A stretch of DNA of 64,000 nucleotides from Ramlibacter tataouinensis TTB310 (GTDB lineage Bacteria > Pseudomonadota > Gammaproteobacteria > Burkholderiales > Burkholderiaceae_C). Location of the stretch: assembly GCF_000215705.1 (NCBI RefSeq), contig NC_015677.1:1624001-1688000 (forward strand), written 5' to 3'. The position numbers and the translations under genes were made by a program. Position 1 is the stretch's first letter. Every line of letters starts with the position of its first letter. Below the pieces are notes generated by a model, which saw only the letters and a program-made list of their open reading frames with translations, was not told the origin of the DNA and did no database searches. This document shows positions 9,858-21,083 of the stretch, piece after piece.

Positions 9858-11369
9858 ATGGCGCTTCCCGACAACCTTCCCCGCGACGGCGAACGCATCC
9901 TGGAGCTGGCCGCGCGGTCCATGTTCCAGCTGTTCTCCAGCGCCAGCGAGGGCATGTTCCTGGTGGACCGCGGCGGACGCATCGTCTGGCTGAACGACGG
10001 CTACAAGCGCTTCCTGCCGGCCCTGGGCTTCTCGTCGGTGGACCAGTTCCTGGGCCACCGCGTGGAGGACGTGGTGCCCAACACCCAGATGCGGCGCGTG
10101 CTGGAGACCGGCAAGCCCATCCTGGTGGACCTGCTCACCAACCGCGCCGGCACCTTCGTGGTCAGCCGCATCCCGCTGCGCGACGACGCCAGCGGCGAGG
10201 TGATAGGCGCCATCGGCATCGTGCTGTTCGACCACCCCGAGACCACGCTGCAGCCGCTGATCCAGAAGTTCGCCCACCTGCAGCGCGAGCTGGACGATGC
10301 CCGGCGCGAACTGGCCAGCCAGCGCCGCACCAAGTACACGCTGGCCAGCTTCGTCGGCGCCAGCCCCGCCGCCGCCGAGGTCAAGCGGCAGGCCCGGCGC
10401 GCGGCCGCCACGGCCAGCCCGGTGCTGCTGCTGGGGGAGACCGGCACCGGCAAGGAGCTGCTGGCCCATGCCATCCATGCCGCATCGCCCCGCGCCAGCC
10501 GGCCGTTCGTCAGCATCAACATCGCCGCCGTGCCCGACACGCTGCTGGAGGCCGAGTTCTTCGGCGTCGCGCCGGGCGCCTACACCGGCGCCGACCGCAA
10601 GGGCCGCGACGGCAAGTTCAAGCTGGCCGACGGCGGCACGCTGTTCCTGGACGAGATCGGCGACATGCCGCCCAGCCTGCAGCCCAAGCTGCTGCGCGCG
10701 CTGCAGGAGGGCGAGATCGAGCCCCTGGGCTCCAACAAGGTCGTGCCCTTCGACGCCCGCGTGATCGCCGCGACCTCGCGCGACCTGGGCGCGCTGGTGC
10801 GCGAGGGCCGGTTCCGCGAGGACCTGTACTACCGCCTGAACGTGCTGCCCCTGCGCGTGCCGCCGCTGCGCGAGCGGCGCGCCGACATCCCGGCGCTGGT
10901 GGAGGTGCTGGCCGAGGACATGGCGCTGCGCAACGGCACGCCGCCGCCCGAGCTGTCGGCGGACGCGCTGGCGCTGCTGCAGGCCCAGGGCTGGCGCGGC
11001 AACATCCGCGAGCTGCGCAACGTGCTGGAGCAGGCCGCGATGCGCAGCGACTCGCCGCATCTGGGCGCGGGCGAGCTGGAGGCGGTGCTGCGCGAGTCGG
11101 GCGTCGAGCGCGTCGAGCCGCCACCGGCCGCACCGGCATCGGCAGCCGCCCTGCGGCCCCTGGCCGAGCAGGTGGCCGAGGTCGAGCGCCAGGCCATCCA
11201 GGCCGCGCTGTCCGCCACCGGTGGCAACAAGCTGGCCGCCGCGCGGCTGCTGGGCATCTCGCGGGCCAAGCTGTATGAGCGGCTGGAGGCACTGGCTGGA
11301 AACCGGGCAGTGTCCGTTTCCCGGACAGGCTCGGTTGTCCGGTTTCCGGACACGGGGCGCTGCGGCTGA
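9858..11369 (+). CDS. Sigma-54-dependent transcriptional activator (PAS-AAA+-Fis HTH)
   Basis: Enhancer-binding protein of 503 residues. Residues about 20-125 form a PAS sensor domain ([20 protein letters not shown]). Residues 165-400 are the sigma-54 activator ATPase with Walker A GETGTGKE (193-200), the sigma-54 contact loop GAYTGA (240-245, the usual GAFTGA with a tolerated Tyr), Walker [12 protein letters not shown] (261-271) and R-finger region [15 protein letters not shown]. The C-terminal Fis-type HTH ([20 protein letters not shown]) is followed by a ~24-residue tail whose DNA carries two operator palindromes. The gene lies directly upstream of, and in the same direction as, the ABC-receptor/PHB-depolymerase genes, and a -24/-12 promoter follows it, so it most likely activates that locus. 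The PAS ligand is unknown. Confidence 0.92.
11311..11352. promoter_or_regulatory. Two 17-bp palindromic activator sites (UAS) upstream of a sigma-54 promoter
   Basis: TGTCCGTTTCCCGGACA at 11311-11327 and TGTCCGGTTTCCGGACA at 11336-11352 are both perfect TGTCCG-N5-CGGACA palindromes, centred 25 bp apart. They sit inside the last codons of the activator gene, 60 and 85 bp upstream of the -24 element at 11404. That position, pairing and symmetry are what enhancer sites for sigma-54 activators look like. Assignment to this activator is inference from position. Confidence 0.8.
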
Positions 11370-11401
11370 AGGAAACCCAGGCGCCACAGGCACTTGGGCG
11401 G

Positions 11402-11418
11402 CTGGCACGGCTCGTGCG
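11402..11418 (+). promoter_or_regulatory. Sigma-54 (-24/-12) promoter
   Basis: CTGGCACGGCTCGTGCG matches the -24/-12 consensus (YTGGCACG-N4-TTGCW) with the invariant GG at 11404-11405 and GC at 11416-11417 at the required 10-base gap. Only the -12 half deviates (GTGCG for TTGCA). Transcription would begin near 11429, giving a ~34-base leader to the ATG at 11463, which is preceded by AAGGAGA. Confidence 0.8.
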
Positions 11419-20161: not shown

Positions 20162-20198
20162 GAGAGCGAACGGGGCGCCCGCCCCGGCAAAGGACAGC

Positions 20199-21083
20199 AT
20201 GCAGCCCACATCGAACTACGCGACCTGCGCCGGGCGCGAGATCCACTACACCGAATGGGGCCCGCCCGGCGGTCCGGTGGTCATCGCCTGGCACGGCCTG
20301 GCGCGCACGGGGCGCGACATGGACGAGCTGGCGCAGCGCCTGGCGCAGCGCTTCCGGGTGATCTGCCCCGACACCCTGGGCCGCGGCCTGAGCCAGTGGA
20401 GCCCCGACCCGCTGCGGGAGTACACCCTGGCGTTCTACGCCCGCCTGGCCTGCGAGCTGTTCGACCGGCTCGGCATCGAGGAGGCGCACTGGGTGGGCAC
20501 CTCGATGGGCGGCGCCATCGGCACGGTGTGCGCCGGGGGGCTGCAGGTGCCGGCGCTGCGCGGGCGCATCCGCAGCCTGGTGCTCAACGACAACGCGCCG
20601 CGCCTGGCGCAGGCCGCGCTCGACCGCATCCGGGCCTATGCCGGCAGCCCGCCCTCGTTCGCCACGGTTCGCGAGCTGGAGGCGTTCTACCGGCAGGTCT
20701 ACAAGCCCTACGGCTGGATGAGCGATGCGCAGTGGCGGCGCCTGACCGAGACCTCGACGCGGCGCCTGCCGGACGGGCGCGTCACGCCGCACTACGACCC
20801 GGCCATGGTGCGGCAGTTCATCGACCACCCGCGCGACTACGAGCTGTGGGAGCACTACGACGCGATCGAGGCCCCGGTGCTGTGCCTGCGCGGCGCCGAG
20901 TCCGACTTGGTGCTGCCCGACGCGACGGCCGAGATGATGCAGCGCGGCCCGGGCGCGCGCGGCCGGCTGCGCGTGGTCGAGGTGCCCGGCTGCGGCCATG
21001 CGCCGGCGCTCAACGTGCCAGCGCAGCTGGACCTGGTGGCGGGCTTCATCGAAGCCCACGAGCCGGCGCTGGCCGTTGCCTGA
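20199..21083 (+). CDS. Alpha/beta hydrolase, possible intracellular esterase or oligomer hydrolase
   Basis: Cytoplasmic alpha/beta-hydrolase of 294 residues without signal peptide. Oxyanion segment AWHGLART near residue 30, nucleophile elbow VGTSMGGAIG (Ser about residue 104), acid likely in RGAESDLVL and catalytic His in PGCGHAPAL near the C-terminus. AAGGA precedes the ATG. It lies 37 bases behind the 3HB-oligomer hydrolase in the same direction, so it may be the last gene of the PHB operon and act on short 3-hydroxybutyrate esters imported intact. The family is too broad to fix the substrate; that role is inference. Confidence 0.75.
   Translation: MQPTSNYATCAGREIHYTEWGPPGGPVVIAWHGLARTGRDMDELAQRLAQRFRVICPDTLGRGLSQWSPDPLREYTLAFYARLACELFDRLGIEEAHWVGTSMGGAIGTVCAGGLQVPALRGRIRSLVLNDNAPRLAQAALDRIRAYAGSPPSFATVRELEAFYRQVYKPYGWMSDAQWRRLTETSTRRLPDGRVTPHYDPAMVRQFIDHPRDYELWEHYDAIEAPVLCLRGAESDLVLPDATAEMMQRGPGARGRLRVVEVPGCGHAPALNVPAQLDLVAGFIEAHEPALAVA

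Follow-up and report, generated by a model that had tools for sequence, protein, structure and literature searches.

A candidate sigma-54-controlled operon for polyhydroxybutyrate utilisation in Ramlibacter tataouinensis: a conserved importer core with two slots for polyester-cutting enzymes

The genome of Ramlibacter tataouinensis TTB310, a single contig of 4.07 Mb (NC_015677.1), carries a run of nine genes that is, with a probability of about three in four, an operon for the utilisation of poly(3-hydroxybutyrate) (PHB) and oligomers of 3-hydroxybutyrate (3HB), switched on by its own sigma-54 activator. The genes lie on the plus strand at positions 9858–21083 of the window, the 64,000-nucleotide stretch from 1624001 to 1688000 that was analysed. 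In order, they encode the activator, a periplasmic binding protein (SBP) of the Liv type, a secreted PHB depolymerase, the transporter subunits LivG, LivF, LivH and LivM, a 3HB-oligomer hydrolase (3HBOH) and an alpha/beta hydrolase, after which comes a ferrochelatase gene on the opposite strand. Across related genomes, the PHB enzymes look like optional additions at two fixed places in a common core of importer and switch. The features are as follows.

9858–11369, plus strand: sigma-54 enhancer-binding activator, with PAS (26–122), AAA+ (166–332) and Fis-type helix-turn-helix (439–478) domains
11293–11309: predicted activator site 1, TGGCTGGAAACCGGGCA, 11 of 12 palindrome letters
11311–11327: predicted activator site 2, TGTCCGTTTCCCGGACA, 12 of 12 palindrome letters
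11336–11352: predicted activator site 3, TGTCCGGTTTCCGGACA, 12 of 12 palindrome letters
11403–11418, plus strand: sigma-54 −24/−12 promoter element, TGGCACGGCTCGTGCG, 10 of 12 consensus letters
11463–12656, plus strand: Liv-type periplasmic binding protein (SBP), Peripla_BP_6
12786–14282, plus strand: secreted type-2 extracellular short-chain polyhydroxyalkanoate depolymerase, NF050059, with fn3 linker and C-terminal domain
14299–15072, plus strand: LivG-type ATPase, by family match
15069–15794, plus strand: LivF-type ATPase, by family match
15791–16771, plus strand: LivH-type permease, GTG start, named from position and translation; the same gene stands in the same place in relatives
16780–17910, plus strand: LivM-type permease, BPD_transp_2
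17894–20161, plus strand: 3HBOH, PF10605, lipobox LAGC, TTG start
20199–21083, plus strand: alpha/beta hydrolase, closing the conserved core; no signal peptide evident by eye

The activator, SBP, LivGFHM and alpha/beta hydrolase constitute a core that recurs across relatives. Among 150 genomes of the family, the SBP was found in 85 (expectation value, E, 1e-60), and a locus unique to this genome was thereby rejected. The sequence-only reading of this DNA had proposed a search for the gene order elsewhere, and the order does recur in other genomes. Since it does so in many of them, the locus is more than chance, and a chance neighbourhood was rejected on the strength of synteny across genera. 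Seventy-nine named loci, fetched by their SBP from the best 80 of 579 relatives and counted even when cut by a contig end, contain the activator in 73 cases, livG in 78, livF in 76, livH in 75, livM in 74 and the last hydrolase in 68, compared with 25 for the depolymerase and 21 for 3HBOH. Of the 68 loci in which both SBP and last hydrolase were found, 38 hold no plug-in enzyme. Phylum-wide, the SBP was found in 16 of 299 genomes (E 1e-100); LivG, F, H and M adjoin it in all 12 loci examined, 10 of them outside the family, with the activator upstream on the same strand in three of the 12 and the last hydrolase downstream in three.

The core is thus more widespread than the PHB enzymes, which have been plugged in more than once. 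The slots were computed directly from gene positions: slot 1, from SBP to livG, takes the depolymerase, and slot 2, from livM to the last hydrolase, takes 3HBOH. Among the 85 SBP-bearing genomes, both slots are occupied in 12, that of the depolymerase alone in 9 and that of 3HBOH alone in 14, giving totals of 21 depolymerases beside the SBP and 26 3HBOH genes behind livM; these counts are minima because of contig breaks and broken genes. The remaining 50 carry neither PHB enzyme beside the SBP, and the fixed, coupled block of the sequence-only reading gives way to a conserved core with optional PHB enzymes. Joint occurrence of the two enzymes in their slots has a Fisher p of 0.005, and presence in a genome set against presence of the SBP one of 0.005 for 3HBOH and 0.077 for the depolymerase, all three values ignoring kinship. 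Type-2 depolymerases over the cut-off number 36 genes in 34 of the 150 family genomes; 21 of the 36 lie within 2.5 kb of the SBP, which is 21 of the 25 in SBP-bearing genomes. Any match to 3HBOH occurs in 46 of the 150 genomes, 45 over the cut-off. Above 680 bits there are 44 matches in 41 genomes, 26 of them in this operon: 25 lie within 9 kb of the SBP and one (G142), whose SBP is on another contig, was added by hand. In two further loci (L066, G027:C51; L065, G104:C391), 3HBOH occurs beside the last hydrolase solely as fragments, a picture that a decaying gene or assembly errors would give.

Phylogeny supports repeated recruitment. The 3HBOH tree has 65 rows (62 different, as three pairs are identical, the same genome under two names; two short sequences of 67 were dropped) and an arbitrary root. 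Thirty in-slot genes form one clade, 16 fall in another clade of 21 rows that includes the window, and one (L090) stands among out-of-slot genes. This clustering by slot is clear, with 6 changes where shuffles average 16, none of the 500 being as low. The depolymerases of slot 1 belong to two lineages, clades of 18 and 25 rows in a tree that includes one wrong row (L211, a non-depolymerase frame). Their clustering by slot, computed without L211 and one duplicate, is no better than in shuffles (5 changes, a number as low in 113 of 500); the claim is therefore limited to two in-slot lineages. Among the best 80 of 579 relatives, the closest named locus by SBP identity is that of Caenimonas soli, with an SBP 92% identical to that of the window and a depolymerase only 55% identical; two Ramlibacter assemblies follow at 90 and 88% for the SBP. 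Culturable carriers of the full operon include Acidovorax delafieldii (L161) and Caenimonas koreensis (L105). If the transporter did not handle the product of the PHB enzymes, their recruitment from more than a single lineage would be difficult to account for.

Other genes also occupy these positions. In three Ramlibacter loci, slot 2 holds, in place of 3HBOH, an unrelated COesterase-family gene with a lipobox-like start (L113:16552-18360, L108:16254-18098, L116:4909-6756). A second Liv-type SBP is present in 18 loci, 16 of which have an enlarged slot 2, and was located in slot 2 itself in L070 and L105. The SBP–livG slot is enlarged in L107, L110 and L057, with a duplicated SBP gene there in L107 (by Pfam) and L057 (by eye, two SBP matches). 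Out-of-slot 3HBOH genes stand beside a different Liv system, 24–43% identical, in L073, L080, L085 and L095, genomes that also have the core SBP elsewhere; between this second system and 3HBOH lies a PAS-LuxR gene, confirmed by Pfam in L080 and L095. Additional neighbours of out-of-slot 3HBOH are a gene of the tannase/feruloyl esterase family (L060:6931-8826) and one of the metallo-beta-lactamase superfamily (L073:11117-12136).

Sigma-54 control of the operon is strongly supported. The activator matches PF00158 (222 bits) and PF02954 (48 bits), its loop reads GAYTGA, a variant of GAFTGA, and the genome contains two rpoN matches. The −24/−12 element ends 44 bases upstream of the SBP start codon, and its conservation was computed directly over 64 loci, namely the window and those 63 of the 79 named loci with the activator within 800 bases, none dropped. 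All 64 have, no more than 260 bases upstream of the SBP, a site in which GG and GC are correctly spaced; 38 score 11 of 12 letters, 23 score 10, two score 9 and one scores 8, the last being also the best score of control stretches inside the activator gene. A loose scan of the whole window found fewer such elements than expected by chance (56 versus 94), so the case for the promoter rests on conserved position and not on the consensus.

Upstream of this site lie palindromes of the form TGYCYGN5CRGRCA, to which the activator is predicted to bind. With 11 or 12 of the 12 letters and at most 200 bases upstream of the site, at least one is present in 53 of the 64 loci and in one of 64 control stretches. 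At least two are present in 23 loci and three in 16, mostly near −111, −92 and −67; the window carries all three, within the 3ʹ end of the activator's own gene. Because 18 of these regions, together with the window, served to choose the motif, and because the loci share kinship, the claim is carried by the control and not by a p-value. The form TGTCCGN5CGGACA has two exact occurrences in the genome, both at this locus, and TGTCTGN5CAGACA is absent from the genome at up to one mismatch. In a scan of other loci (L001–L003 and L052 onward, without L178–L207), double sites away from the SBP promoter were found only in L110, at the duplicated-SBP slot, and in L139 and L148, before a TonB-dependent receptor gene. 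The latter genes (L139:3784-6282, L148:574-3120; receptors 98% alike) lie directly upstream of the activator and are preceded by three of the same palindromes and a −24/−12-like site (9 of 12 letters). In L235, from another family, a 37% identical receptor precedes hydrolase, SBP and Liv genes.

The importer probably takes up 3HB or short 3HB oligomers, as judged from its sequence and company. It has the architecture of the LIV family (SBP, two ATPases, permeases), and yet LivG (189 bits, cut-off 362), LivF (185, cut-off 441) and LivM (81, cut-off 366) all score well below the cut-offs of their NCBIfam models. Alignment of the SBP with E. coli LivJ and LivK, computed directly, keeps Ser79 and replaces Thr102 by Val and Glu226 by Ile or Leu in all eight clade members; a second alignment puts Gly at the Glu226 position of the window's SBP, which is non-acidic either way. 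Thr102 and Glu226 of LivJ are residues that hold the amino group of the ligand, and their loss fits a carboxylate without an amino group, such as a hydroxycarboxylate. The closest solved chains, PDB 3n0x (548 bits) and 3nnd (530 bits), belong to the same SBP clade and bear a depositors' name that gives no ligand; their source is presumably Rhodopseudomonas palustris. Some relatives carry sCache_2 chemoreceptor genes between activator and SBP (Pfam on two, homologues in six loci). This domain has been linked to carboxylic acids in CtpM of Pseudomonas aeruginosa (PMC8694187). The word "hydroxybutyrate" does not occur in the main text of a binding screen of R. palustris proteins (PMC3223731), to which this statement is confined.

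The depolymerase gene encodes a type-2 extracellular PHB depolymerase, predicted to hydrolyse the polymer. Its product scores 377.1 bits against NF050059 (cut-off 280) and 330 bits against PDB 2d80, has an fn3 domain at 372–451 of the longer open reading frame (ORF), and shows by eye a signal peptide and the serine motif GLSSG. The genome has a second type-2 depolymerase gene (C1:2174580), with no double palindrome site in the 3.3 kb examined, and a plasmid collection yielded distant depolymerases only, all below 60% identity (39 records). 3HBOH, the sole PF10605 match in the genome, aligns nearly full length (920.4 bits, profile positions 29–687 of 688) and has no PDB relative by sequence at E 0.01. 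Its lipobox was taken directly from the translation, and a loose lipobox pattern fits 45 of 48 in-slot 3HBOH proteins. Homologues of the last hydrolase (top 120) bear generic names, and so do those of the activator (top 120).

Gene content was likewise computed directly, and all nine genes were present on the one strand as first claimed. Overlaps of 4–17 bases had been described throughout the transporter and hydrolase genes; from livG to the last gene, three of the five junctions do overlap (by 4, 4 and 17 bases), while livH and livM are separated by 8 bases and 3HBOH and the alpha/beta hydrolase by 37. Further upstream, the gaps are 93 bases between activator and SBP, 129 between SBP and depolymerase, and 16 between depolymerase and livG. 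The idea of one regulated unit survives insofar as a Liv transporter and enzymes for cleaving polymer and oligomer stand behind a sigma-54 promoter; the unit itself begins at the SBP, with the activator upstream of the promoter. The locus had also been called complete, which does not hold: a 3HB dehydrogenase gene (TIGR01963, over the cut-off) lies about 174 kb downstream (G000:C1:1819343) with no double palindrome site within 1.5 kb, and the window contains no homologue of the outer-membrane receptor present in some relatives.

Together, the gene products fit a route that leads from the polymer into the cytoplasm. The activator's PAS domain would sense a signal from PHB breakdown, and the activator, bound to the three palindromes that lie in tandem where its gene ends, would drive the −24/−12 promoter of the SBP gene. 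Outside the cell, the secreted depolymerase would cut PHB; at the cell envelope, the lipoprotein-like 3HBOH would shorten the oligomers; and SBP with LivGFHM would move 3HB, short oligomers or both across the inner membrane. Inside, the alpha/beta hydrolase may split the remaining ester of a dimer before the 3HB dehydrogenase encoded elsewhere takes over. In this scheme the ligand, the inducer, the cellular locations and the role of the last hydrolase are deduced. A core lacking PHB enzymes could scavenge 3HB or oligomers made by others, or could have a wider substrate. More tentatively, at somewhat less than even odds, these loci may together represent a widespread, modular "polyester utilisation locus". 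A single sigma-54 switch would then govern an ABC importer that naturally handles 3HB oligomers, fed in some relatives by a TonB-dependent receptor answering to that switch as well; an esterase in the cytoplasm would deal with the oligomers, and different polyester-cutting enzymes would have been swapped repeatedly in and out of the two slots. Most members would scavenge PHB breakdown products released by others, and carriers of plug-ins would be primary degraders.

Several observations weigh against a PHB operon. Of the 85 SBP-bearing genomes, 50 have neither enzyme beside the SBP, so the substrate of the core may be a different or a wider one. Acyl-CoA ligase and enoyl-CoA hydratase genes lie near the Liv genes in three of the ten loci outside the family (L231 and L237, both genes by Pfam; L234, ligase by Pfam and hydratase by eye), and such neighbours point to a carboxylic acid, not specifically to 3HB. 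The last hydrolase does not match a characterised 3HB hydrolase (i_nPHAscl, 42 bits, cut-off 300), and the lipobox is not specific to the operon, occurring also in 15 of 18 other 3HBOH proteins (60 of 66 overall). Finally, TGTCCGN5CGGACA at up to two mismatches is rarer genome-wide than its reversed control (120 versus 390) and is therefore not enriched, and the other depolymerase-like genes of this genome (L001–L003) lack double sites.

A narrower version of the proposed operon would import monomeric 3HB only, oligomers being fully cleaved outside and the last hydrolase having another role. A 3HBOH outside the inner membrane would indeed yield monomer, and the sCache_2 genes in the operon of some relatives agree with this. 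However, the alpha/beta hydrolase is far more constant than 3HBOH (68 versus 21 of 79 named loci), and the link to a TonB-dependent receptor suggests a larger substrate in some relatives, which leaves the monomer-only version rather improbable. It is unlikely that the Liv core takes up a different short carboxylate or a small ester instead and that PHB enzymes were inserted as useful in the same growth state. This would account for the majority of core operons, which lack both PHB enzymes (50 of 85), for the retention of SBP and LivGFHM in other classes, with the acyl-CoA genes nearby in three of ten loci, and for the unrelated carboxylesterase that can fill a slot. It does not readily account for the fact that each of the two slots has received PHB enzymes of more than one lineage, or for the second, different Liv system beside 3HBOH in four genomes. 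An ordinary branched-chain amino acid transporter lying between PHB genes by happenstance, as family annotation and the livGFHM gene set might suggest, was rejected as very improbable in view of the sub-cut-off NCBIfam scores, the absence of the amino-group contacts from all eight aligned clade members and the recurrent synteny with hydrolases.

Within the window, the depolymerase start was assigned to the ATG behind AAGGAG at 12786, a longer ORF from 12738 being less likely, and the 3HBOH start to the TTG behind AAGGAG. Neither sigma-70 promoters (0 versus 0.7) nor terminators (7 versus 4.4) in the block are clearly above shuffles. Immediately upstream of the activator, at 8063–9802 on the plus strand, is a Gly/Ala-rich ORF with a signal-peptide-like start behind AAGGAG and many imperfect short repeats; neither Pfam nor NCBIfam gives a match at E 0.001, and a long antisense ORF overlaps it. 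The translation of 4927–6438 (plus strand) resembles a TctA-type large membrane subunit of a tripartite tricarboxylate transporter.

The study of extracellular PHB depolymerases has a long history. In the parts of the open PubMed Central (PMC) literature that were accessible, no account was found of the route by which oligomers set free outside get into the cell, nor of a sigma-54 switch dedicated to genes of this kind. If correct, the present reading supplies a concrete candidate importer and a regulator with predicted sites, as well as a genomic marker by which primary PHB degraders can be told apart from scavengers in this group of betaproteobacteria. Predictions of bioplastic breakdown and the construction of 3HB sensors would also benefit.

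The titles, abstract openings and passages retrieved from the open PMC literature, by searches on the binding protein and the regulator too, describe no such operon, and none of this kind is described in the accessible text of PMC2864759, PMC3430594, PMC8694187, PMC12117332, PMC13372988, PMC13390443, PMC12912811 or PMC3223731; PMC12783253 yielded no matching passage. Individual parts have known relatives. The PhaY 3HB-oligomer hydrolases of Cupriavidus (H16_A2251, H16_A1335 and Rmet_1960) are named for the same reaction as 3HBOH (PMC2864759, PMC3430594) and are described as intracellular, whereas the window's 3HBOH has a lipobox and shares an operon with a secreted depolymerase and a transporter. 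HbcR (PA2005) of P. aeruginosa, an activator of (R)-3HB catabolism, has a PAS domain at 17–123 near its N-terminus (PMC8694187), and its RpoN dependence is given by the title of a 2015 paper in reference lists. By description, the window's activator is alike in its N-terminal PAS domain and its predicted RpoN dependence. We take PhaY1 to belong to PF10605, the family of 3HBOH. The LIV/HAAT system of E. coli (LivJ/K-HMGF) is built from the same protein families (SBP, two ATPases, permeases), but here the residues that hold the amino group are lost, and the transporter is tied to polyester hydrolases and a sigma-54 promoter. Polysaccharide utilisation loci unite a depolymerase, an envelope oligomer hydrolase, an importer and a dedicated regulator in one locus. 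The window's operon differs in its target, a polyester instead of a sugar, in its ABC importer and in that no outer-membrane receptor was found. By analogy, and with substrate and induction deduced, it may be the polyester counterpart of such a locus, importing 3HB or short 3HB oligomers.

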